Source of the DNA: Clostridiales bacterium
Lineage (GTDB): Bacteria > Bacillota > Clostridia > Caldicoprobacterales > DTU083
Assembly (NCBI GenBank): GCA_012839095.1
Contig: DUOA01000127.1
Coordinates: 1 to 64,000, forward strand
Length of the DNA stretch: 64,000 nucleotides
Direction: 5' to 3'
Below, piece by piece: positions 47,145 to 64,000 of the stretch. Numbering within the stretch: the first letter of the stretch is position 1; every line of letters starts with the position of its first letter. The notes below the pieces were generated by a model. That model made no database searches. It saw nothing but the letters and a program-made list of their open reading frames with translations, and was not told the origin of the DNA. The position numbers and the translations under genes were made by a program.

Positions 47145-47660
47145 TTGCACAACATGCTGAAGCCTAACCTGACTGTCGGTTCTATATTTGATATTGATCT
47201 CCAATCTCTGATGGAAAAGGGGTATAAATATATTATTATAGATGTTGACAATACGATAACTGCCTGGAATCATTATAAAATCAGTCAAAGGCTTAGAAAC
47301 TGGGTATTCAAGGCTAAAGAAACAGGTTTTAGCATCTGTCTTTTGTCCAACAATAATCAAGCGAAGGTACAAAAATTTGCTTCGGAACTGAGTGTCATGG
47401 CTGCACCTGTCGGGGGAAAACCTCGTTTACGATCTTTTAAGAGTGCTCTGACTGCTCTAAGAGGCGGCACGCACAACACATTGGTCATAGGAGATCAAAT
47501 TTTCACTGATATTCTGGGCGGAAACCGGGCAGGGCTTTTTACCATTCTGGTCGATCCTATTGACAATAAAGAATTCATAGGAACAAAGTTTACCAGGCTG
47601 ATGGAACGTATAGTAGCAGGAAGGAGGCCCATATGCAAATCACACCGGCAACCAAGGTAG
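47145..47660 (+). CDS. yqeG: YqeG-family HAD-type phosphatase
   Basis: 171 residues with HAD motifs: DVDNTITAW (motif I), LLSNNN (motif II), conserved Lys in KPRLRSFKSAL and IGDQIFTDILGGNRAG. Related to the Gep4 phosphatidylglycerophosphate phosphatases; a role in phosphatidylglycerol synthesis is plausible but not shown. The TTG at 47145 is preferred (AAAGGAAG 6 bases upstream, LKPNLTV start); a TTG at 47124 would add 7 residues. It overlaps aroE by 28 bases. Confidence 0.88.
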   Translation: MHNMLKPNLTVGSIFDIDLQSLMEKGYKYIIIDVDNTITAWNHYKISQRLRNWVFKAKETGFSICLLSNNNQAKVQKFASELSVMAAPVGGKPRLRSFKSALTALRGGTHNTLVIGDQIFTDILGGNRAGLFTILVDPIDNKEFIGTKFTRLMERIVAGRRPICKSHRQPR

Positions 47661-48475
47661 TCGGTCTCATTGGGCATCCGGTGGCTCACAGTCTGTCACC
47701 TGTTTTGCACAATCATCTTTACCAATCATTGGGACTTGATATGGTGTATCATGCCTTTGATGTATTGCCTGATCAGGTGGAAGCTGCTGCAGCCGGGCTG
47801 AAAGCCCTTGGATTCACTGGCTTTAATGTTACCGTTCCCCATAAGGAAGTGGTATATAATCTTCTGGATTGGATTGATGAAGAGGCCGAAATAGTTGGTG
47901 CTGTCAATACCGTGAAGATTGAAAACGGACGATTGGAGGGGTATAATACCGACGGGCAGGGGTTCATTCAGTCATTGCATGCATCGGGTTTTTCTGTCAG
48001 CAATAAAAAAGTAGTTATGCTCGGCGCAGGCGGGGCCGCCAGGGCCATTGGAATATCTGTCTCTAAAGAAGAACCGGAAGAAATCTGTATTATAAACCGA
48101 ACTTTCAGCAGGGCTGATAGACTGGCATACTTAATCAACAACCACAAAGGAAGAAGAATTGCCAGAGCCGCTTCAGTTATACCGGCAAATACTGATTTTA
48201 TTATTAACACAACCTGTCTGGGTATGTGGCCTGATACAGTTGGAAATCCAATACAGGGATACAGCTTATCAAGTCACATGGTAGTTTGTGATATAGTTTA
48301 CAATCCCAGGCAGACAGCAATGCTAAAGTATGCAGAGAAACATGGCTGCAGGGTCTGTGACGGGATGGGAATGCTGATAGGACAGGGAATCAAAGCAGTT
48401 GAAATATGGCTGGATACTTCTCTTTCCAAGGATTCCTGGCAGCTCATGTCCAAGGCAGCCTATAATCATAAGTAA
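47633..48475 (+). CDS. aroE: Shikimate dehydrogenase
   Basis: NADPH-dependent step four of the shikimate pathway. 280 residues with GLIGHPVAHSLSPVLHN, NVTVPHKE containing the catalytic Lys, NTDGQGF, Rossmann motif VVMLGAGGAARAIGI and GMGMLIGQG. GGAAGGAGG lies in the end of yqeG. In most Clostridia this locus continues directly to pilB; here three other genes intervene. Confidence 0.95.
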   Translation: MQITPATKVVGLIGHPVAHSLSPVLHNHLYQSLGLDMVYHAFDVLPDQVEAAAAGLKALGFTGFNVTVPHKEVVYNLLDWIDEEAEIVGAVNTVKIENGRLEGYNTDGQGFIQSLHASGFSVSNKKVVMLGAGGAARAIGISVSKEEPEEICIINRTFSRADRLAYLINNHKGRRIARAASVIPANTDFIINTTCLGMWPDTVGNPIQGYSLSSHMVVCDIVYNPRQTAMLKYAEKHGCRVCDGMGMLIGQGIKAVEIWLDTSLSKDSWQLMSKAAYNHK

Positions 48476-48503: not shown

Positions 48504-50027
48504 TTGGCAGAGCGGCTGATTGAGCTACTAACGACAATGCTGGGGCCGTTTGTTTTTGAGTTTTCCCTGGGGCTCCTGCTCATTTTATGGATTGCACTTT
48601 ACATTTACTTCCATGTTATTATTTTGAGGCCTGTTTACATAAATTTAAAGCAGTTTACTGAGCTTTTATCCGGGCTTGATGATTATAGCAATGAAAACCA
48701 TCCAAGGATAGAAGAATATATCTACAGCCAAAAAGATATAACATTCCTGCGTGATTTATGGAATGAATTCAAAGAAAAGCACAATGATACATCCAATGTA
48801 GACCAATGTTTCAATAAACATACTATGGTAACTGCTCCTGCCAGGAGGAACCAGGCTAAATCATTACCGGCCTTTTTTTTGACCGTAGGGCTGACATTAT
48901 CATTATTTTGCCTGCTTCTTCGTTTTCCAGCAGCGCAGCCAGTCTCAGACTTTACCAGTCTTTTGTACACTGCAGTCAGCGAAGTAATCGTAATTGCCTT
49001 GTTTTCCATTTTGCTTTCCTTTATAACGGCTATCGTCAACAGGTATATGTTTAGCAAAGCAGATGCATGGGTATATGAAATTAACAAACTGTTGAAGCGA
49101 AAACTGCCTTTATCTGATGAGGAAAGTGAGTTTGACAAAATGGCAGCAGCAATAGACAATATGGCCAGCAGTTTGTCCTCATATGCACAATATCAGGCAG
49201 ATATTCAGCGTAACGGTATGAACCAGCTGGTTGATGTCTTTCTTGAGAAGCTGCATAGTGAAATGGACGGGCAAATGCAAGTCCTGGGTGAGTCCTTGCA
49301 GAGTGTTTCTGAAACGCAGATGCAGCTGGCATCCCAAACAGGAGTATTTATAAATGAATTGATTAAGGGAACAAGAAACCAAATGCAGGTAAACGAGGTG
49401 ACTGATTCCATTGTTTCTTCAATAGCAAGATATCATGAGCAAATCTCCAGCAGCAGTCAAAGTCTGGCAGGCAGCCTGGAGGACCTGCATATGATATCCC
49501 AAACTCTTAACAACATGATCACTTTCAGCAGTGATGCACTCATGACTGTTAAGCAGGAAAGGGAGAGCCTGAAAGATGAATACGGGAAATACATTCAGGA
49601 GATGATTGATTTAATACAAAAATACCGGCAAAGTGCAGCTGATGAAGTAATACAGGCCATAAACAGATTTACCGATGTTTCCGAGCAATACTTCAATAAG
49701 CTGGAAGACACGGTTAACAGGTCAATGCATGAATGGATTAATACAAATCAGTCTGCAGTGAAGCATTTTGAGGAAAAAACCCAGGATTTTTACAGTGTAT
49801 CGAAGGAAGTTTCTCAGCTCCTGGGAGAGATGAACAACAGTCTGAGGGAAACTATGAAGGAATTCACTCAGGCGATTGAGAAGGGAACGATAAATACAAT
49901 AACAGAGTTTGACGAAGGTCTTACGGATATTACCAAGAGACTGAGCCATACAATAACGGAAATTAGAGACTCAATAGATGAGATTCCTGCTGTTATTAAT
50001 ATGCTGAAAGAAGTTAACAGTGAGTAA
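48504..50027 (+). CDS. MotA/ZorA-like membrane protein with long helical tail
   Basis: 507 residues from the TTG at 48504, chosen because AAAGGAGG (48488-48495) precedes it; an upstream ATG at 48399 would lie inside aroE. Three TM segments (about 14-41, 121-141, 155-182), with LPAFFLTVGLTLSLF resembling the MotA/TolQ/ExbB core, then about 325 residues predicted as helical, rich in Gln/Glu/Ser and without strong domains. This topology matches ZorA of the Zorya phage-defence system, where the tail extends into the cytoplasm. Family assignment rests on topology and gene order rather than on strong motif matches; a flagellar MotA is unlikely because of the tail and the missing fourth TM. Confidence 0.6.
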   Translation: MAERLIELLTTMLGPFVFEFSLGLLLILWIALYIYFHVIILRPVYINLKQFTELLSGLDDYSNENHPRIEEYIYSQKDITFLRDLWNEFKEKHNDTSNVDQCFNKHTMVTAPARRNQAKSLPAFFLTVGLTLSLFCLLLRFPAAQPVSDFTSLLYTAVSEVIVIALFSILLSFITAIVNRYMFSKADAWVYEINKLLKRKLPLSDEESEFDKMAAAIDNMASSLSSYAQYQADIQRNGMNQLVDVFLEKLHSEMDGQMQVLGESLQSVSETQMQLASQTGVFINELIKGTRNQMQVNEVTDSIVSSIARYHEQISSSSQSLAGSLEDLHMISQTLNNMITFSSDALMTVKQERESLKDEYGKYIQEMIDLIQKYRQSAADEVIQAINRFTDVSEQYFNKLEDTVNRSMHEWINTNQSAVKHFEEKTQDFYSVSKEVSQLLGEMNNSLRETMKEFTQAIEKGTINTITEFDEGLTDITKRLSHTITEIRDSIDEIPAVINMLKEVNSE

Positions 50028-50063
50028 ACCTGCAATTTAAAATAAGAGAGGAAAAGAAGAAGG

Positions 50064-50888
50064 ATGAGAATAATGCAAAGAGAGAGTTTCATATGGAATC
50101 CTTTCAACATAATAACAGCTATTTTTCTCTTCTTCATGATAATGTGTCTTTTATTTTTATCAGCATATAATTCAGCACAATTAATGGCGGAGGGCTCAAC
50201 TGAAGAACCGATCAACCCGGATAATGAGCTGCTTACCATGAAAGAAATTCTTGCTGAAAAAGCACTCCTCAATAAACGGGAGTCCAGTTTAAACGAAAAG
50301 GAGGAAAGACTAAAAAAACAGGAAGAACGTTTGACTGATCAGGAAGCCTCATTAAACAAACTGATGGAGGTTCGTACAAAAATAATAAGGCAGCTGGTTG
50401 ATACATTCTCTCAATCCAATTTAATATTGGAAATAGATAAGCAAACCGGTGCAATCCGATTTAGTGACGGAATCTTTTTTGATGCCAGCCGGGATGTCAT
50501 AAATGAAAATGGTGCAGAGTATTTGAATGAGTTTATACCCGCTTATTTCTCCATTCTGCTCAATGATGATAATCGGGAGTTTATCGCAGAGATTATTATT
50601 GAAGGACATACAGACGATGTGGGGAGCTACCTCAGCAATCTGGAACTGTCTCAAAACAGAGCTCTGGCAGTTGCCAGATTTATACTCCATGATGATTTTC
50701 CTGAGTTTGAACATAAGGATATCATTCATAAATATTTAACAGCCAATGGAAGATCGTACAGCCAGCCTATAATGACTAATGGGGTAATTAACAGGGATAA
50801 GTCCAGGAGAGTGGAATTCAAGTTTCGCCTGAAGGACGAGGAAACCATAAAGGAAATGCAACAGATATTTGAAAGGACCAATAGGTGA
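50064..50888 (+). CDS. MotB/ZorB-like OmpA-domain membrane protein
   Basis: 274 residues: short cytoplasmic start, one TM segment (about 14-36), periplasm-side coiled coil (about 55-105), and a C-terminal OmpA/MotB peptidoglycan-binding domain with IIIEGHTDDVGSYLSNLELS and QNRALAVARF (about 177-210). The TM start reads WNPFNIITAIFLFFM: compared with MotB/ZorB (W...ADxMTA) the proton-carrying Asp is Asn15, and no other acidic residue lies in the TM. Start ATG 50064; ATG 50073 is equally possible. It should pair with the upstream protein. The 3' end overlaps the next gene by 4 bases. Confidence 0.72.
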   Translation: MRIMQRESFIWNPFNIITAIFLFFMIMCLLFLSAYNSAQLMAEGSTEEPINPDNELLTMKEILAEKALLNKRESSLNEKEERLKKQEERLTDQEASLNKLMEVRTKIIRQLVDTFSQSNLILEIDKQTGAIRFSDGIFFDASRDVINENGAEYLNEFIPAYFSILLNDDNREFIAEIIIEGHTDDVGSYLSNLELSQNRALAVARFILHDDFPEFEHKDIIHKYLTANGRSYSQPIMTNGVINRDKSRRVEFKFRLKDEETIKEMQQIFERTNR

Positions 50889-52093
50889 TGGGATACGCTA
50901 TAGCTTTTCCAGTACTTAAGTTTAACAAGACAGCGGAATATATCCGAAAAATGCATCCTTATACGAAAGAAATCCCCTTGATGGATATGAAGGATGAGGT
51001 GCAGGAATTGCTCAGCCAAATCGACCGGCTGGATGAAAACAAAATGGCTGATTATGTCTTGTCTCTCCCAAACAGCGACTTGGTACTGATTTTTCATGCA
51101 CTGTTATATGATATATCTTCATTACAAAGAGAAAGGCTTTTATTCATTCTGTCACAAAGGATGAAAAAGCGTTTTTTTCATTATAATTGGATCATGCTGC
51201 AGGAGCATTATACCAATGCTTCTCTTATAGAGTCTTTCATTCTGCTTATGAAGTTTATGAAGGAAAAATATCCAATTGAATATAATCGTTCTTTGGCCAG
51301 TAAATTATCATTTCCCAGAGGTGATTTGGTAAATCAGGCCTTAATGGTATTGGATGAAGAACAATGCACATTGAGTGATTTTTTAAAGCGATACAGCTTC
51401 ATTGAAGGCAGCGCTCTTTCCGGAGCATTGTTGGAGACGTATTTTTTACAATGCAGCAAAGAAGGATTTCACAAGAATGCAGATTTATTTATAAAGTGGA
51501 TCAATACTTTAGACAGCATGCCTTATTCACAAATAATTCATTATCTGGATGTTATGAGCATTCTGGATTTCGTGGAAGATATTAACAATTATCTGATTGA
51601 GATTATTGGATTACCGGGGCAGAGCGAGCATTGGAACAAAATAGAAAAAAGATTTCAGACAAAATTCCTGAAATGGATAAAATTCAAGGATTTGGGAAAA
51701 TATCTGGGGTTAAATACAGAAAAATTTGTTTTTTGGAATGATTATTATCATTATGTAGAGAAAGTTGAGTGTTATCCGGAACTGGGCATTTTGTTTTTGC
51801 ACCTGCCCGGTCATGTGGTAGTTGACTTAAAGGAGAACAGCAGTACTTCCTATCTTTATAAAAATAACATCTTTCATGCAGCTTACGAACAATTTGATAC
51901 TGCCGGCGGATTTGAAGGGAAAAGCAGCTGGCCGTTGGAATCAGAGGAAAGCATTGAGCCGATTAAGAATGCTATACTGGAAAATAATCATTCTGAAATA
52001 TACGAGCTGATATATGAAGGAATGGGCAAACTGTATATTCGTGACTATCTGGAATCATATTGTCAGAATAAGAGCATAAAATTAATTTACTGA
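50885..52093 (+). CDS. ZorC-like protein with possible EH-signature domain
   Basis: 402-residue soluble protein, no TM or signal peptide. The front two thirds are helical and unrecognised. Near the C-terminus (about 283-335) it reads FVFWNDYYHYVEK and LPGHVVVDLKENSSTSYLYK followed by FHAAY, which looks like the EH-signature domain (conserved Glu and His) that marks ZorC. ZorC normally works with ZorAB and a helicase-nuclease. The GTG start overlaps the previous stop (ATG 50888 is an alternative), so the gene is coupled to the ZorB-like gene. The relation to ZorC is my recall of the domain pattern and needs a profile search. Confidence 0.5.
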   Translation: MMGYAIAFPVLKFNKTAEYIRKMHPYTKEIPLMDMKDEVQELLSQIDRLDENKMADYVLSLPNSDLVLIFHALLYDISSLQRERLLFILSQRMKKRFFHYNWIMLQEHYTNASLIESFILLMKFMKEKYPIEYNRSLASKLSFPRGDLVNQALMVLDEEQCTLSDFLKRYSFIEGSALSGALLETYFLQCSKEGFHKNADLFIKWINTLDSMPYSQIIHYLDVMSILDFVEDINNYLIEIIGLPGQSEHWNKIEKRFQTKFLKWIKFKDLGKYLGLNTEKFVFWNDYYHYVEKVECYPELGILFLHLPGHVVVDLKENSSTSYLYKNNIFHAAYEQFDTAGGFEGKSSWPLESEESIEPIKNAILENNHSEIYELIYEGMGKLYIRDYLESYCQNKSIKLIY

Positions 52094-52127: not shown

Positions 52128-53810
52128 ATGGTTAATCGCAGCAAAAGAGGCTTAGGTGAGATCCTTTTAGAGTCCGGGATTATCACATCCAGCCAGCTGG
52201 AAGAAGCATTAATAAAGCAAAAAACAAGCGGAAAAAGACTGGGAGAGATTCTGATTGCCGAAGGCATCATCAATGAAAAACAATTAATAGAAGCACTTGA
52301 ATATCAGTTGAAGATACCCTATTTCGATTTTACAACCGAGTCCATTCAACCGGAGATTCCCAGACTTATCAGTGAAAGTTTGGCCAGGAGGCATATGCTT
52401 ATACCCATCAGCAGGGAAGGCAAACAACTGACGGTAGCAATGGTAGATCCGCTTAACCTATACGCCATCGATGATGTTAATATTGCTACCGGGCTTCAAG
52501 TGAAACCTGCTCTGGCATTACGCAGTCATATAGAAAGCGCCATTGATCGCTATTACGGCAAGGAGAGTGCAGAAAAAGCCGTAGAGGATTTTACGCGGGA
52601 GATTGGAATAGAACAGATCAACGAAATAGAAGAAAATATACTCAGTGAGATTAATAATGCCCCAGTAGTCAGGCTGGTGGATTCCATAATACAGCATGCA
52701 GTTCGTGCAAGGGCAAGCGACATTCATATAGAGCCTTTTGAAAAGAATATACGGATTAGATTTCGTATTGACGGTGAACTGCAGGAAATAATGACTTCCT
52801 CAAAAACCACTCATTCTGCCATTGTAACACGTATCAAAATCATTGGCAGAATGGACATTGCGGAAAAAAGAATTCCTCAGGATGGACGTGTAGAACTCCA
52901 GGTAGACAATAAGGATGTGGACTTACGAATTTCAGTTCTGCCTACTGTCTATGGAGAAAAGATTGTAATACGCTTATTGGATCGCAGCAGCACGATTATG
53001 ACCAAAACCCAATTGGGCTTTAGTGAAACCAATATCAGGATGTTTGACAAACTGATCCAAAGCCCAAACGGAATTATTTTGGTTACCGGTCCTACCGGAA
53101 GCGGAAAAACTACAACCCTGTATGCTGTTTTGCAGGAATTGAATAAAATTAACAGAAATATAATCACAGTGGAAGATCCGGTGGAATATCGATTGGACGG
53201 GGTAAATCAGGTGTCAGTAAATGTCAAAGCCGGACTGACTTTTGCCAACGGACTACGCTCCATTCTGCGCCAGGACCCGGATATTATAATGATTGGAGAG
53301 ATACGTGATGCGGAAACAGCTGAGATATCAGTACGTGCAGCAATCACAGGCCATCTGGTTTTAAGTACAATGCATACCAACGATTCGGCGTCCACTGTTT
53401 CAAGGCTGGTTGAAATGGGTATTGAACCTTATCTTGTGTCCTCATCAGTTGTAGGTGTAGTAGCCCAACGATTGGTAAAAAAGATTTGCAGTAATTGTAA
53501 AGTGGAGTATGAGCCATTATCTTCGGAGAAAGATTTGCTGAATAAGCCTGATTTAGATGTATTGTATAAAGGAGAAGGATGCAGTTTATGCAATAATACA
53601 GGATATAGAGGAAGAACCGCTATACATGAAGTAATGCTTATGACGAGGGAGATTCGTGAGATGGTAGACAGAAGAGCTTCGATTGATGCTATCAGAGCCG
53701 CTTCTGCCAAGTACGGTACGATTACTCTTAGAGACAGCTGCAGTCAGTTGGTTTGGGAAGGAATTACAACTACGGATGAAATGTTGAAGGTGACATATAG
53801 TATAGAATAG
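52128..53810 (+). CDS. pilB: Type IV pilus assembly ATPase PilB
   Basis: Hexameric motor that drives pilus extension. 560 residues: N-terminal MshEN domain with two tandem 24-residue repeats (GLGEILLESGIITSSQ.. and RLGEILIAEGIINEKQ..) separated by five residues, a pattern that binds c-di-GMP in related ATPases; then GspE core with Walker A GPTGSGKTTT (about 321-330), Asp box, Walker B IMIGEIRDAETAEI and the tetra-cysteine zinc motif CSNC...CSLC. AAAAGGAGGGG precedes the ATG. Confidence 0.96.
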   Translation: MVNRSKRGLGEILLESGIITSSQLEEALIKQKTSGKRLGEILIAEGIINEKQLIEALEYQLKIPYFDFTTESIQPEIPRLISESLARRHMLIPISREGKQLTVAMVDPLNLYAIDDVNIATGLQVKPALALRSHIESAIDRYYGKESAEKAVEDFTREIGIEQINEIEENILSEINNAPVVRLVDSIIQHAVRARASDIHIEPFEKNIRIRFRIDGELQEIMTSSKTTHSAIVTRIKIIGRMDIAEKRIPQDGRVELQVDNKDVDLRISVLPTVYGEKIVIRLLDRSSTIMTKTQLGFSETNIRMFDKLIQSPNGIILVTGPTGSGKTTTLYAVLQELNKINRNIITVEDPVEYRLDGVNQVSVNVKAGLTFANGLRSILRQDPDIIMIGEIRDAETAEISVRAAITGHLVLSTMHTNDSASTVSRLVEMGIEPYLVSSSVVGVVAQRLVKKICSNCKVEYEPLSSEKDLLNKPDLDVLYKGEGCSLCNNTGYRGRTAIHEVMLMTREIREMVDRRASIDAIRAASAKYGTITLRDSCSQLVWEGITTTDEMLKVTYSIE

Positions 53811-53823
53811 GTGTTGGATTATA

Positions 53824-54885
53824 ATGGTAAGCATAAATGATCTACTGGCGGATGCAGTAAATTCAAAGGCTTCAGACGTTCACCTTACAGTGGGTGTACC
53901 TCCTATCATTCGAATAAACGGTATTCTGCATCCATATAATGACACAATACTAACATCGGATGATACAAAACATTATATACTTCAGGTACTCAATGAACAT
54001 GAACGGGAACAGTTGGACAAATATGGTGAATGGGATTTATCCTTCTTCCTGCCCGGAGTGGCGCGCTTCCGGGTTAATGCTTACAAGCAGCGCGGCAGTT
54101 ATGCCATGGCTATCAGAATAGTCAGCATCGACCCGCCAACTTTGGACGAGCTTGGTTTCCCGGATAGTCTGAAGGAACTGTCAATGAAACCAAGAGGGCT
54201 GATTCTGGTGACAGGACCTACCGGGAGCGGCAAATCCACTACCCTGGCTGCCATGGTGGATCACATTAACAGAAACAGGCGATGCCACATTATTACCCTG
54301 GAAGATCCAATTGAATACTTACATAAGCACAATAAGAGTATTGTTAACCAAAGAGAAATCGGCAGTGACAGCAAGACTTTTGCCAATGGACTTCGTGCTG
54401 CCCTTCGTGAAGATCCTGATGTTATTCTGGTAGGAGAAATGAGGGACATGGAAACAATTTCCACCGCAATTACAGCGGCTGAAACCGGACATCTGGTCAT
54501 GTCTACCCTCCATACCATGAGTGCTGATCAAACGGTAGATCGTATCATAGATACATTTCCCGGGCATCAGCAGGCACAGATCAGGACTCAGCTTTCTTTT
54601 GTAATTGAAGGCATTATAGCCCAGCAGCTGCTCCCTCTCAGGAACAATAAAGGCAGAGTAGCAGCGTTGGAAATACTTTTGGCCAACAACGCCATACGTA
54701 ATTTAATTCGTGAGGGAAGAACACATCAAATACAAACAGCTATTCAGACCGGACTAAGGACTGGTATGAGCACCATGGATTATTCCCTAGCAAATTTGGT
54801 ACGCAGGAATTTAATTACATTGGAAGTTGCCATGGAACGTGCAATGGATACAGAGATGCTGAAACAGCATTTGAGAACCGGCTGA
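53824..54885 (+). CDS. pilT: Type IV pilus retraction ATPase PilT
   Basis: 353 residues, lacking the zinc motif of PilB, with ASDVHLTVGVPP at the N-terminus, Walker A GPTGSGKSTT (about 131-140), ALREDPDVILVGEMRD and HTMSADQTVDRIIDTFP, all PilT landmarks. Its presence suggests retractable pili and possibly twitching or DNA uptake. Start 13 bases after pilB. Confidence 0.96.
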   Translation: MVSINDLLADAVNSKASDVHLTVGVPPIIRINGILHPYNDTILTSDDTKHYILQVLNEHEREQLDKYGEWDLSFFLPGVARFRVNAYKQRGSYAMAIRIVSIDPPTLDELGFPDSLKELSMKPRGLILVTGPTGSGKSTTLAAMVDHINRNRRCHIITLEDPIEYLHKHNKSIVNQREIGSDSKTFANGLRAALREDPDVILVGEMRDMETISTAITAAETGHLVMSTLHTMSADQTVDRIIDTFPGHQQAQIRTQLSFVIEGIIAQQLLPLRNNKGRVAALEILLANNAIRNLIREGRTHQIQTAIQTGLRTGMSTMDYSLANLVRRNLITLEVAMERAMDTEMLKQHLRTG

Positions 54886-54927
54886 TAAAGATCAAACCGA
54901 TGCAGTTATGTCGAAAGGGGGATGAAT

Positions 54928-56133
54928 ATGCCTTTATTTGAATACAAGGCAATCAGTCAAACCGGTGAAAGCATAACCGGGCGGTACAATGCAAAAACAC
55001 GTAATGAAATTATGGAAATGCTTCGTAGTAAAAACTATCATCCCGTCCAGGTAAAGGAAGTTGGAGGAAGCAAGGATCTCAGTACGCTGAGTGTATTCAA
55101 CAAAGTCAAAATTAAAGATATAGCTGTATTTGCAAGACAGTTTCACGCAATGCTGAATGCCGGTGTGACCATTATTCAGTGTCTGGATATTTTAAGACAG
55201 CAAACTGAAAAACAAACATTTAAGAATGTTATAGAAAAGGTTTACGAATCAGTCCAAAAAGGCTCAACCCTATCCGAGTCGATGAAGGAACACCGACAAA
55301 CCTTTCCTGAACTGTTTGTCAATATGGTAGAAGCAGGAGAAGCCAGCGGAAACCTGGATAGTATCATGGATAGAATGGCTGTTCATTACGAAAAGGAAAC
55401 CAAGATACAGAACAAAATTAGAGGTGCAATGACCTATCCTATTATCCTTGCAGTGGTTTCTGTTGTTGTTGTTGTGTTCATGTTAGTAGCTATCCTTCCT
55501 ACCTTTCTCAGCATGTTTGAAGGCAGCGGTTTGGCTTTACCCGGGCCCACCAAATTTTTACTTTCCATTAGCAATGGGATCAGACAGTATTGGTATATAA
55601 TTTTGATGGTCATAATTGCTGTAGTATATCTGATTCACAGATACATCAATACAGAGGAAGGGAGGAAACAATTTGACCGGTTGAAGCTGAAAATGCCGGT
55701 AGTCAACAACATGGTGATCAAGGTAGCCACCTCAAGATTTACCCGTACATTAGCAACTCTGCTGGCCAGTGGCATCCCTTTGCTGCCTTCAATGGATATA
55801 GTGTCCAAAATCGTAGGAAATCGGATTATTTCTGATGGCATATTAGGTGTTAAAGAAGATCTGAGAAAAGGCTATGATTTGGCAGGGCCTATCCGTCGAC
55901 TGGGAATATTCCCGCCTATAGTAGACTCCATGATTCGAATAGGCGAAGAATCCGGTTCATTGGAGGAAGTGCTGCAGAGGACAGCAGATTTTTATGATGA
56001 GGAAGTAGATGTGGCAATACAAAAAATGACATCCATGCTGGAACCTCTCATGCTGGTTGTTATGGCAATTGTTATCGGCTTTCTGGTAGTAGCAATGTAC
56101 CTACCCATGATTGACATGATGCAGACGATATAA
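54928..56133 (+). CDS. pilC: Type IV pilus inner-membrane platform protein PilC
   Basis: About 401 residues with two GspF domains (about 60-190 and 265-390) and three TM segments (about 168-190, 218-240, 370-394). Starts PLFEYKAISQTGE after Met. The ATG at 54928 is preferred, since AAAGGGGG ends 6 bases before it and would abut ATG 54922. Links the PilB/PilT motors to the pilus base. Confidence 0.95.
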   Translation: MPLFEYKAISQTGESITGRYNAKTRNEIMEMLRSKNYHPVQVKEVGGSKDLSTLSVFNKVKIKDIAVFARQFHAMLNAGVTIIQCLDILRQQTEKQTFKNVIEKVYESVQKGSTLSESMKEHRQTFPELFVNMVEAGEASGNLDSIMDRMAVHYEKETKIQNKIRGAMTYPIILAVVSVVVVVFMLVAILPTFLSMFEGSGLALPGPTKFLLSISNGIRQYWYIILMVIIAVVYLIHRYINTEEGRKQFDRLKLKMPVVNNMVIKVATSRFTRTLATLLASGIPLLPSMDIVSKIVGNRIISDGILGVKEDLRKGYDLAGPIRRLGIFPPIVDSMIRIGEESGSLEEVLQRTADFYDEEVDVAIQKMTSMLEPLMLVVMAIVIGFLVVAMYLPMIDMMQTI

Positions 56134-56154
56134 ATTAGAAATGAGGTGATCCCA

Positions 56155-57213
56155 TTGGCTAAATACCTGATTTCTCTGGATCTGGGCAGCCAAAATATAC
56201 AAATAATATATGGCAGATACAATAAAGGGAATATAGAAATACGAAACGCAGTTACTGCCCCAATACCGGAGGAAGTGTACAAGGATGGAAGAATTGAGGA
56301 TCTTGATATGATGAAGCAATCCATCCGGGATTTGATTACCGCAAACAAGATCAAGGAAAAAAGGACAGCACTAACGATACAAAGTACATCCATCATTACC
56401 AGAGACATTATGCTGCCGGCAACTGAGCGTCAGCATTTGGATAACATGGTAAAATATGAGATCGAGCAGTATCTGCCCATTGTAGCAACAGAGTATATCA
56501 TAGATTATTCTGTATTGGACGAGATTGATGAAGATGGAATAAGAAAATACAGGATACATGTAGCTGCAATTCCAAAAAATATGGTCGAACAATACTTGTC
56601 TCTGGTAAAGGGAATAGGGTTGAAGCCTATAGCTCTGGACATTCACTCCAACGCCGCAGCCAAGCTTTTTTCCCAAAACGCATCCATAAATGGAGAGGAT
56701 TTGGACATCAGCAAGACTTTAGCCTATATTGATTTTGGATATCGAAGCATCAGTATTCATATACTATCAAAAGGAAAGCTGGAATTCAGCCGAATGATCA
56801 ATTTAGGCGCGAGGGAAATGGATGAAGAAATATCTATTACCTGTAATTTATCACTGAGCCAGGCTGAAAAGAAAAAGATTCAGGAAGCAGATCTGAATCC
56901 TGAGGATTACAATGAACTAATGGCAGATTCTTTTCATGATATTATTCGTTCTCAGACAGATATCTGGCTGGCCGAAATTCAGAAGGTTTTTCAGTATTAC
57001 ATCAGCAGAACAACCGGTAATCATATTGAAGGTATTTATCTATATGGAGGCGGTTCCAGGCTTAAGGGTCTGGATAAATATGTTGAGCAGGCATTGAACC
57101 TTCGTACCAGAAACATTGATAATCTTGCTATTATCAAAACAGCGGTGAGCACTTCTTATTTCAACCCCAGGGACTATATTAATGCATTGGGGGCGCTGAT
57201 ACGATATGAGTAA
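56155..57213 (+). CDS. pilM: PilM, actin-like pilus alignment protein
   Basis: 352 residues of the FtsA/PilM fold: phosphate-1 motif LISLDLGSQNIQI, LAYIDFGYRSISIHI and GIYLYGGGSRLKGLDKYV. TTG 56155 is chosen because GAGGTG is 6 bases upstream; the GTG at 56146 overlaps that site. PilM binds the PilN N-terminus at the cytoplasmic face. The end overlaps pilN by 8 bases. A second PilM-like gene starts at 63113. Confidence 0.93.
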   Translation: MAKYLISLDLGSQNIQIIYGRYNKGNIEIRNAVTAPIPEEVYKDGRIEDLDMMKQSIRDLITANKIKEKRTALTIQSTSIITRDIMLPATERQHLDNMVKYEIEQYLPIVATEYIIDYSVLDEIDEDGIRKYRIHVAAIPKNMVEQYLSLVKGIGLKPIALDIHSNAAAKLFSQNASINGEDLDISKTLAYIDFGYRSISIHILSKGKLEFSRMINLGAREMDEEISITCNLSLSQAEKKKIQEADLNPEDYNELMADSFHDIIRSQTDIWLAEIQKVFQYYISRTTGNHIEGIYLYGGGSRLKGLDKYVEQALNLRTRNIDNLAIIKTAVSTSYFNPRDYINALGALIRYE

Positions 57214-57802
57214 CATTAATCTGCAAAAACAGGATTTTAACTTTTTTTCCCATGAGATTTACTCCAAGCGCTCAACAAGAAAAAGAAGTATACAGCTTGG
57301 AGTTATGGTACTAATATTTTTGATGCTGATAGCGGGTGTTTATTTTTACTTTGAGTATGCTATTCATTCTGCTCAGGAACAAATCGATTCCCTTGATGAA
57401 TTTCTGGCATCGGAAGAAGTTGATGCGAATCGGAGACTGGTTGCAGAGAAAAAACAGGAAATCAATGAACTGAAAAGACACTCTGCTGCTTTGAAATCCT
57501 TCCTTGAGAATATTCAGAGAAAGGACATCATAGGAATCGAATACATTAATCAGCTTACCTCTGCCATCCCTCAAGGCTTGTTTTTTGAAAGCATAACCCT
57601 GACTACGGAACAGATACATATACAGGGAAAATCGCCGAATAGGCAGATTATTGCGGAATACCTGAACAATATGCAGGCTTTGGAGCTCTTTCAGGATGTC
57701 CATGTACCAAGTATAACTACCATTTCCGAAGAAGAGGATAACGAGCAGAGTGAATACTCCTTTGTCATGACCTGTATCTTAAAGGATGTGATGGAAGAAT
57801 GA
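57206..57802 (+). CDS. pilN: PilN-like pilus alignment protein
   Basis: 198 residues: cytoplasmic N-terminus with NLQKQDFNFFS (PilM-binding-like), one TM segment (about 29-50), coiled coil, and an alpha/beta domain with ITLTTEQIHIQGKSPNRQII. Overlaps pilM and pilO, showing an operon. Assignment is by order and topology. Confidence 0.82.
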   Translation: MSNINLQKQDFNFFSHEIYSKRSTRKRSIQLGVMVLIFLMLIAGVYFYFEYAIHSAQEQIDSLDEFLASEEVDANRRLVAEKKQEINELKRHSAALKSFLENIQRKDIIGIEYINQLTSAIPQGLFFESITLTTEQIHIQGKSPNRQIIAEYLNNMQALELFQDVHVPSITTISEEEDNEQSEYSFVMTCILKDVMEE

Positions 57803-58590
57803 AACTAACAAAGAGAGAGGCCTTCCTGCTGAAGTTAGTCAGTTTTGTAGCTTTACTGGTTCTATCCTACTATTTTATAATAGCACCACAACTGGAAAGA
57901 TTAGCTGAGACTGAACAGAATCTGGCATTAAAATCTTCGGAAGTTGAGACGATTGAATCAGAGATACAAAGTCTTCCCCTACTAGAGGAGGAAATTGCAT
58001 CACTGCAAGAAGAAATCAGGGTTTCAACAAAAACCTTTTACCCTGAACTGCGGCAGAAGAAGCTTATTGTTATTCTGGATGAACAGCTTAAACAGTCCGG
58101 AACAGCAGCGGATTCTTTGACGTTTTCCCAGGTAAATTCTGAAGAAAGTACTGAAGATCTTGGAACAGATAATGAACAAACCGAAAATTCAGATGTCAAT
58201 TCCAATGGAGAGCCTGTAAAGACAGTTCTTCAGTCCATATCAATTCAAGTCCCATTTACCGGCAGTTATGAGCAAATAATTGATTTGATAAGGAGACTGG
58301 AAGACATGAATCGTACTTTCGTCATTAACAGCCTTCAGCTGTCCCAAGGTACAGACGGCACAATCAGCGGAACAATTAATCTGGATTTTTATTCATTGAA
58401 AAAACTGTTCCCTGATCCACAGGATGAGGATTATCTTAGCTGGCCATACAATACACCTAAAGGTATAGACAATCCTTTCCGGTTCATAGAAAGTGAAGAA
58501 TCGGTATCTGAAGATGACTTGGAAACAACAGCACCGGAGGGGACAGAATCTCTGCCCGAGTCAGAGAATCAGGATGAGGAACAACCATAA
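57799..58590 (+). CDS. pilO: PilO-like pilus alignment protein
   Basis: 263 residues: TM segment (about 10-30), coiled coil (40-85), PilO-like ferredoxin-fold domain (about 140-200, PFTGSYEQIIDLIRRLEDMNR), then an unusually acidic tail of about 45 residues rich in Glu and Ser. Overlaps pilN by 4 bases. Forms the inner-membrane alignment complex with PilN and PilM. Confidence 0.82.
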   Translation: MKLTKREAFLLKLVSFVALLVLSYYFIIAPQLERLAETEQNLALKSSEVETIESEIQSLPLLEEEIASLQEEIRVSTKTFYPELRQKKLIVILDEQLKQSGTAADSLTFSQVNSEESTEDLGTDNEQTENSDVNSNGEPVKTVLQSISIQVPFTGSYEQIIDLIRRLEDMNRTFVINSLQLSQGTDGTISGTINLDFYSLKKLFPDPQDEDYLSWPYNTPKGIDNPFRFIESEESVSEDDLETTAPEGTESLPESENQDEEQP

Positions 58591-58606
58591 AATGAAGGGG
58601 ATTTAA

Positions 58607-59377
58607 ATGGAATTTGTTCTTATAGCGCTCGTATCTATAGCAGGATTGCTGATGGGCAGTTTTTTCAATGTATGCATCTATCGTGTTCCGAGAGACCAAT
58701 CCATAGTAAAACCTGCTTCCCGATGTACCTCCTGCGGCACAAGATTAGCCTGGCGTGATTTAATGCCTGTAATCAGCTGGGTTAGTCTGGGAGGGAAATG
58801 TCGTTACTGCAAGAGTCCTATATCTTATAGATACACTTTAGTTGAATTGCTTACCGGTTTGATATTTGTAGTTCTGTATCTGAAATTTGGAATAAGCGGC
58901 AGCTTTTTAACGTATGCAATACTTTGTTCGATATTAATTATTGCTACCCTTATCGATTTGGACTTTCAGATCATACCGGACGGACTGGTACTTACAGGGG
59001 CAATATTCGCTTTATTGCTGATACCGGCCGGTCTGTCTGTTCACTGGAAAGATGCATTGCTGGGGATGCTGGCAGGAGGAGGCACATTTTTGCTGATTGC
59101 GCTTCTTTCCTCGTGGATTCTCAAAAAAGAAGGTATGGGCGGCGGTGATATCAAACTAATGGGCATGATAGGCCTGTTTATCGGATGGAAATTAACAGCT
59201 TTATCCATCCTCTTATCAATATATGCAGGCGGAATAATTGGCGGATTACTGATGCTGCTCAGAAAGAAGAAACGCGGCGATGCCATACCATACGGCCCAT
59301 TTATTGCTGCAGGCACGGTTATTGCCATTCTTTACGGAAACGATTTGATTCAATGGTATATCCTGACGTTTTTGTAA
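58607..59377 (+). CDS. pilD: Prepilin peptidase PilD
   Basis: 256-residue membrane aspartic protease that cleaves and N-methylates prepilins. N-terminal methylase segment with CTSCG and CRYCKSP zinc cysteines, catalytic Asp in LIDLDFQIIPDG and GxGD motif MGGGDIKLMG. About seven TM helices. GAAGGGGA precedes the ATG. A terminator follows. Confidence 0.95.
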   Translation: MEFVLIALVSIAGLLMGSFFNVCIYRVPRDQSIVKPASRCTSCGTRLAWRDLMPVISWVSLGGKCRYCKSPISYRYTLVELLTGLIFVVLYLKFGISGSFLTYAILCSILIIATLIDLDFQIIPDGLVLTGAIFALLLIPAGLSVHWKDALLGMLAGGGTFLLIALLSSWILKKEGMGGGDIKLMGMIGLFIGWKLTALSILLSIYAGGIIGGLLMLLRKKKRGDAIPYGPFIAAGTVIAILYGNDLIQWYILTFL

Positions 59378-63112: not shown

Positions 63113-64000
63113 TTGTTTTACCCAGGCAATCGGATTCTGTCGGTGGATATGGGCAGCCACACGTATAAATATATAGAAGCAAAAATGAAACCTGACATTA
63201 AGATACTTCGTTATGGCTTTGTTGAAAAAGAACAGCTGTTTCAGGCAGATAAGCCTGCCCGGGAATGGAGAAAGCTGGGCTGCCGTACCAGAGATACCAT
63301 TCTTTCTTACAAGCACCAGTCAATGATAATGCGTGAATTTACTCTGACTGCTCGTGATTCATTCCAGTTCCGGAACAAATTACAGGAGGAAATAAAACAA
63401 TATCAGATTGATCTAAAGGATGAGTTTGATTTTGACTGCTTAATGCAGTTTGTTGACAAGGATACCGGGCTTTATCAGGCTACAACCGCAGGAATCTCCA
63501 GAGGAGTAAATCGCGATTACATAAACAAAGCTTACTGTCTGGGTCTGAGGCCTAAAGCAGTTGATTTTCAGGTGTCTGCCGGATTTAGGTTAATCAACAG
63601 GGCTCTTGAACATTCAGAAGCAGGATCCTTTCCATATCTGATGCTGGATCTGGGATATGAAAGCACAATGGTGGGTATAGCAGATAAAGATAATATATTT
63701 GCTTTAAAGACCGTTCCGGCAGGATGTCGCTTAATTGCCGAGTCTGCATCTGAAAATGAGTATTATTACGATCAGCTCTCCATGCTCTGTATTGAAATGA
63801 TTAACTTCTATATGACACGGCATCATAAGGAATTGATGCAAGGCATCTTTTTTGGCGGAGGCAGCTGCTTTCCTGCTGTTTCTGCCTTTCTTAGGGAACA
63901 GATTCCACTATATTGGAATGATTTGAATAATTACATCGCTTATTTACCGGAAATTCCCGATGATATGGATTTAAATCTGTATGCTAACTGTCTGGGATCC
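63113..64000 (+). CDS. Second PilM-like protein, partial (3' end outside window)
   Basis: Open for 296 codons to the right edge from TTG 63113, with GAGGTG 6 bases upstream. It resembles the first PilM: phosphate-1-like ILSVDMGSHTYKYIEAK, YLMLDLGYESTMVGI and GIFFGGGSCFPAVSAFL. Sequence identity to the first PilM is low, so it is not a recent duplicate. Probably pairs with another PilN/PilO-like set beyond the window. Confidence 0.75.
   Translation, partial: MFYPGNRILSVDMGSHTYKYIEAKMKPDIKILRYGFVEKEQLFQADKPAREWRKLGCRTRDTILSYKHQSMIMREFTLTARDSFQFRNKLQEEIKQYQIDLKDEFDFDCLMQFVDKDTGLYQATTAGISRGVNRDYINKAYCLGLRPKAVDFQVSAGFRLINRALEHSEAGSFPYLMLDLGYESTMVGIADKDNIFALKTVPAGCRLIAESASENEYYYDQLSMLCIEMINFYMTRHHKELMQGIFFGGGSCFPAVSAFLREQIPLYWNDLNNYIAYLPEIPDDMDLNLYANCLGS

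Follow-up and report, generated by a model that had tools for sequence, protein, structure and literature searches.

The contig DUOA01000127.1 of a Clostridiales bacterium was analysed over positions 1-64,000 (the window), within which a module of three genes, zorA, zorB and zorC, occupies positions 48504-52093. All three open reading frames are intact, run in the same direction and lie between aroE and pilB, the gene that opens a type IV pilus cluster downstream of zorC. Their products are homologous to ZorA, ZorB and ZorC of the Zorya type I phage-defence system, and each tested Zorya hallmark residue is replaced in them, bar those that bind peptidoglycan. On balance, we favour the view that the module derives from a type I Zorya complex that shed what it needed for defence but was retained for another task next to the type IV pilus machinery. 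Features of the locus are as follows.

47633..48475, plus strand: aroE, which bounds the module upstream and lies 28 bp from zorA (Pfam Shikimate_dh_N, 3.5e-30)
48504..50027, plus strand: ZorA-like protein of 507 amino acids, with three membrane helices and a helical tail of ~325 residues; TTG start with a ribosome-binding site
48900..48902, plus strand: codon of ZorA Ser133, at the site of E. coli ZorA Thr147 (ion ring)
48996..48998, plus strand: codon of ZorA Ala165, at the site of E. coli ZorA Ser184 (ion ring)
50064..50888, plus strand: ZorB-like protein of 274 amino acids, with one membrane helix and an OmpA-type peptidoglycan-binding domain
50106..50108, plus strand: codon (AAC) of ZorB Asn15, which replaces the essential channel Asp (D24/D26)
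50885..52093, plus strand: ZorC-like, soluble protein, starting at GTG 50885 or, more likely, at ATG 50888
51824..51826, plus strand: codon of ZorC Asp314, which replaces the EH-signature Glu (presumably E400 of E. coli ZorC)
52013..52015, plus strand: codon of ZorC Tyr377, which replaces the EH-signature His
52128..53810, plus strand: pilB (extension ATPase), the downstream boundary, 34 bp after zorC (T2SSE 8.5e-138, MshEN 1.7e-23)
53824..59377, plus strand: pilT, pilC, pilM, pilN, pilO and pilD (Pfam T2SSE, T2SSF, PilM_2, PilN, Peptidase_A24; pilO assigned by position)

The TTG start of zorA is preceded by a AAAGGAGG site, the start of zorC overlaps the stop of zorB, and a scan for terminator-like sites revealed no excess of promoters or terminators between aroE and pilB. 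Orthologues were taken from five further genomes of the same family, so that five sequences each of ZorA and ZorB and six of ZorC were aligned.

The ZorA-like protein has its three hydrophobic segments at residues ~22-40, ~121-139 and ~160-178. PADLOC scores it only via its coiled coil. A profile from the five orthologues matches the membrane core of solved E. coli ZorA (8qyk/8qyy), and ZorA chains are the best Protein Data Bank (PDB) matches of its structural model (Foldseek, 8qyk, E 4.3e-5, prob 1.00), the core of which has the MotA/ExbB fold. A hallmark of Zorya I, the MotA-type core with a long cytoplasmic tail, is present; another, the polar Thr/Ser ring around the channel Asp, is absent. 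When T147 and S184 of E. coli ZorA are placed by counting in the alignment of the profile with the solved protein, their equivalents, invariant in 12/12 stator A proteins, read S, S, S, A, S and A, A, A, A, F in the orthologues, the sole Ala at the T147 site belonging to a genome (G002) that is also without zorB. The GTF and T/S-S ring motifs are intact in the same 12 stator proteins and changed in all 11 orthologues and relatives from the zorA-zorC pairs described below. The part best shared with true ZorA is the tip of the tail (EFxxxxxxGTxxTxxxFDxGLxEITxRLSxTIxEIRDSIDxLP), which suggests that the contact between tip and ZorC may be retained.

The ZorB-like protein is recognised by Pfam (OmpA, 7.9e-9) and PADLOC (ZorB1, 1e-62), and a profile of its five orthologues matches solved ZorB (8qyd_F) at 3.5e-12. 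Residues H182, D184, L195 and R199 are invariant in 5/5 orthologues and spaced like H186, D188, L199 and R203, which are needed for peptidoglycan binding in Zorya I ZorB (PMC11890865). The protein keeps the MotB-type layout, the peptidoglycan-binding domain and the key residues of that domain. The membrane Asp required for ion flow and defence is gone. In Zorya I ZorB this residue, D24, is essential, and the D24N substitution abolishes defence (PMC11890865). It aligns with Asn15 (motif WNxxN) in 5/5 orthologues and is kept in 25/25 comparators with a membrane helix, 17 of them assessed from the alignment and eight read off their N-termini. The alignment of Asn15 with Asp requires a one-residue gap, but the conclusion is independent of it because the membrane helix of every orthologue is devoid of acidic residues. 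The helix therefore does not have the acidic, ion-carrying residue of the B subunit of an ion-driven 5:2 stator. Since the wider MotA/MotB family has the ion-site residues, the changes in ZorA and ZorB are losses.

The ZorC-like protein receives no PADLOC score, its Pfam EH_Signature match is below cut-off (E 0.005), and a profile search of the sequences of solved structures in the PDB gave no match. The profile of six orthologues nevertheless matches ZorC from complete ZorABCD loci of other Firmicutes (hmmsearch 3e-24, 6e-23 and 3e-11), and its comparison by hhalign with a profile built from nine true ZorC gives 6e-18. Its AlphaFold2 model (pLDDT, the predicted local distance difference test, 86) has ZorC 8r68 as its top PDB match (prob 1.00). 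PADLOC identifies L089, the locus used as reference, as a genuine Zorya I (ZorC1 7.7e-15, ZorD1 1213 bits). All nine true ZorC share a Glu, a His and, after it, a Trp (E327, H374, W378); by a count in the 8r68 alignment, the Glu is presumably E400 of E. coli. In 6/6 orthologues the Glu is Asp, the His is Tyr or Phe and the Trp is gone, a change whose direction the ZorC tree does not root. Homologous as it is to ZorC, the protein thus has neither the Glu nor the His of the EH signature. The isoelectric point is 5.1-5.6 in the orthologues vs 7.1-9.4 in true ZorC, which argues against retained DNA binding.

A ZorD helicase-nuclease, the fourth hallmark component, is absent from the locus in every carrier, and no ZorD-like protein was found in the whole of genome G000. 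The possibility that ZorD is encoded elsewhere was rejected on these grounds, matches in relatives being to the generic SNF2 domain only and occurring in non-carriers too. An intact Zorya I was likewise rejected on the channel Asp, the ZorA ring, the EH residues and the missing ZorD.

The module was found in six metagenome-assembled genomes (MAGs) of five genera, solely in the order yqeG-aroE-zorA-(zorB)-zorC-pilB-pilT-pilC, and the loci run on to pilM-N-O wherever the contig extends that far; most genomes in the comparison are MAGs, and carriers are few. The named relatives in the family are Clostridiales MAGs, mostly with isolate names in the style of anaerobic digesters, and UBA5454. The module is not a chance arrangement, since four other genomes keep the order and a fifth keeps it without zorB. 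In that fifth genome (G002, locus L009, between 10929 and 10968), zorB is cleanly missing, leaving 38 bp between zorA and zorC with both neighbours intact; zorB was not found elsewhere in the genome, and relocation was rejected. Such a fixed locus differs from the mobile, defence-island type of distribution of Zorya I. Plasmid searches returned no ZorC and two distant OmpA matches only; a contig scan with a single protein gave no match, and one with the alignment returned the same family only.

Two genomes, G001 and G005, are natural empty sites in which aroE is followed directly by pilB. The upstream-gene tree groups G001 with G002 and G003 (97/98), and its empty site is therefore a loss among carriers; G005 groups with G011/G012 at 83/90. 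The pilBTC tree does not resolve relationships inside the family. PilM is present in 6/6 carriers, G001 has neither PilM, anywhere in the genome, nor the module, and G005 has PilM without the module. The pilus cluster of G001 (L111), in a genome also without zorABC, has no pilMNO and a divergent, fast-evolving pilBTC. The carrier G003 has at C36 (L117) an additional, divergent pilB, at 45% identity, accompanied by pilC-like and pilM-like genes of its own, and a second, weakly PilM-like stretch at 63287-63745 of the window, 3' of minor pilin genes, hints at a second pilus assembly gene set.

Across five genera the open reading frames of the module remain intact at ~50% identity, with many invariant motifs. 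The ratio of nonsynonymous to synonymous differences per site (pN/pS) is 0.41 for zorA, 0.34 for zorB and 0.37 for zorC, beside 0.38 for pilN and 0.30 for aroE, all upper bounds as synonymous sites are near saturation. Together with the differences by codon position, these values indicate purifying selection on zorA, zorB and zorC, which evolve at a rate like that of pilN. A broken zorA in L010 was rejected as real decay; it is probably an assembly error, because that contig also has rnj and aroE split.

Beyond the family, a class-level ZorC profile search of 391 genomes revealed six further relatives in four other families; a weak match in G095, to a protein of ~1,450 residues encoded in an ordinary cluster of genes, was set aside. 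Each of the six sits directly 3' of a ZorA-like gene, with neither ZorB nor ZorD, and a ZorB search of equally many genomes in the class returned none of the six genomes among its matches. The EH Glu and His are replaced in 6/6 of these relatives, and the ZorA ring motifs are lost there too. Profile comparison relates the pairs to the three-gene module at 5e-36 for ZorC and 8e-31 for ZorA, and in the tree a fully supported split (100/100; some branches are long) separates true ZorC from the ZorC-like proteins of the two groups taken together. As the pairs persist without ZorB, ZorA and ZorC constitute the constant core and ZorB is dispensable.

Three of the six pairs adjoin type IV pilus genes, in differing arrangements. 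Two lie within pil clusters, in the orders pilD-A-C-pilT-pilB (L125) and pilC-M-N-O-pilins-A-C-pilD-pilB-pilT (L126), while the third adjoins a prepilin-like open reading frame (L127; N_methyl 5.8e-10). By family, the pilus-cluster location holds for f1, f31 and f74, for f84 by the prepilin-like frame only, and not for f27. Encoding within pilus clusters in independent lineages, as expected of a type IV pilus accessory, is therefore observed.

A preliminary description of this DNA had proposed three coupled genes with the topologies given above, homologous to ZorA, ZorB and ZorC and in the Zorya order, within a core chromosomal locus. These proposals are borne out by the profile searches, by fold matches to solved ZorA and ZorC, by trees that include complete ZorABCD loci, and by the survey of homologous loci, in which six genomes of five genera have the same order at a fixed place, one of them minus zorB; the fold and profile comparisons it had called for matched solved ZorA (8qyk, Foldseek) and solved ZorB (8qyd_F profile). 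The EH-signature-like C-terminus that it described stands as homology to ZorC; as an EH signature it does not, the Pfam match being sub-threshold and Glu and His replaced. It had left the choice between a Zorya variant and an envelope complex with another use, of which the latter is favoured here, the hallmarks being replaced and ZorD missing, and it had termed that second option a stator; with the channel Asp and the polar ring of ZorA lost, this term does not hold if it means a motor driven by ions. It did not name the pilus context, though pilB begins 34 bp downstream.

Because the hallmarks are lost yet selection persists, it seems that a defence machine has found another use, probably in the service of the pilus, and it is a role at the pilus that we infer. 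ZorA would still form a ring in the membrane and a long rod reaching into the cytoplasm; ZorB would pin it to the cell wall but conduct no ions, and the helical ZorC-like protein may dock at the conserved rod tip, held at the pilus base. The complex could then anchor, position or gate the assembly ATPases PilB and PilT relative to the wall. In Zorya, the binding of ZorB to the wall is thought to relay a signal along ZorA to ZorC and ZorD (PMC12904381), which makes a rotation-free signal from wall to cytoplasm plausible here. In other clostridial families the wall-binding ZorB has gone as well, leaving the ZorA-ZorC pair alone. A broader proposal, put forward tentatively and with some doubt, is that ZorA-ZorC complexes without a motor, in which ZorB is an optional anchor to the wall, are an unrecognised component of clostridial type IV pili that arose by stepwise stripping, from a working Zorya through a motor-dead A-B-C complex to A-C.

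Several observations weigh against a role at the pilus. Adjacency is not function, and aroE is equally close to the module. G005 keeps pilMNO without the module, which is therefore not essential for this pilus; the joint loss with pilM in G001 is a single case, and the genomes are mostly MAGs. The Foldseek match of the ZorC-like model to 8r68, though top-ranked, is weak overall (E 0.018, TM-score 0.36). Half of the zorA-zorC pairs are judged, at the locus, to be away from pilus genes (genomes G052, G241 and G360): one has no pilus gene on its 10-kb contig (L130), and in two genera of one other family (L128 and L129) the pair lies by genes for a zinc-uptake-type ABC transporter, for a Fur-family regulator and for a protein like peptide release factor 3.

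These three loci, together with the closeness of aroE and the pilus cluster of G005, would also suit an envelope scaffold or sensor that does housekeeping work independent of pili, the adjacency of pilB being historical. Such a role is considered unlikely in view of the independent pil-adjacent arrangements in f31 and f74, the prepilin-like neighbour in f84 and the loss of the module together with pilM in G001. It is also improbable that the module remains anti-phage, as a divergent Zorya without ion flow that recruits an unlinked nuclease and perhaps guards the pilus as a route by which phages enter. In its favour, each of the three proteins is homologous to a Zorya component, the patchy loss in G001 and G005 resembles the turnover of defence genes, and some carriers encode generic SNF2 helicases. 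However, D24N or the loss of any type I component abolishes defence in the tested Zorya systems (PMC11890865), G000 is without a ZorD-like protein, the ZorC-like protein is acidic and has lost the EH Glu and His, and the locus is fixed, with neither a defence island nor mobile-element genes alongside. A decaying Zorya remnant with no present function would account for the lost hallmark residues, the missing zorB in G002 and the losses in G001 and G005; it was rejected on codon statistics and conservation and is very improbable, given the intact frames and invariant motifs, the pilN-like pN/pS, the A-C pair that other families have kept in parallel and the probable assembly error behind the sole broken zorA.

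If reuse at the pilus is correct, the module would clearly exemplify a defence machine taken over for housekeeping, and its intermediate (motor-dead A-B-C) and end stage (A-C only) would both be alive today. The scaffold function of Zorya, rod tip and ZorC, would be separated from its motor, and a profile match such as ZorB1 at 1e-62 would be no proof of a defence system. A literature search, with many subscription papers outside its reach, returned no description of Zorya being reused at a pilus locus. The wall attachment of pilus machines in monoderm bacteria is treated as an open question, and a role of PilO in it as speculation (PMC6916266); the module would be a candidate for how single-membrane bacteria hold these machines in the cell wall.

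Among known systems, the monoderm type IVa pilus complex (PilB, PilC, PilM, PilN, PilO, PilT) shares its cluster and strand with the module, and to our knowledge none of its known components resembles ZorA, ZorB or ZorC. A common clostridial three-gene module (L059, L060, L063, L066, L068, L069 and L070) encodes a MotA/ZorA-like protein of 480-514 amino acids, an OmpA protein of 310-345 with the channel Asp intact (WPSFTDVMS) and a TPR-like protein of ~300-330. Like the module studied here, it is a chromosomal ZorA-like/ZorB-like pair with a third soluble protein, but its channel Asp and ring are intact, its third gene is TPR-like rather than ZorC, and it forms a separate clade in the ZorB tree. 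Two-gene ZorA-ZorB pairs with the Asp intact occur in L052, L054 and L055, with no Zorya C or D genes recognised alongside; a further pair with intact motor motifs, on two IMG/VR contigs classed as viral (L123 and L124; recombinase-like flanking genes in L123), looks like mobile element cargo.

The MotAB, ExbBD and TolQR stators resemble the module in the MotA/ExbB fold of the ZorA-like core and the MotB layout of the ZorB-like protein, whereas the module has its ion-carrying residues replaced and its A-C relatives have no B subunit. Zorya type I (ZorABCD) shares with the module homologous ZorA, ZorB and ZorC in the same order, a three-helix ZorA with a long helical tail and an OmpA-type ZorB in which the peptidoglycan-binding residues are kept. 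In contrast to Zorya type I, the module is without ZorD, its channel Asp is Asn, its ZorA polar ring is changed, its ZorC is acidic and free of the EH Glu and His, and it is kept vertically at a pilus locus rather than in a defence island.

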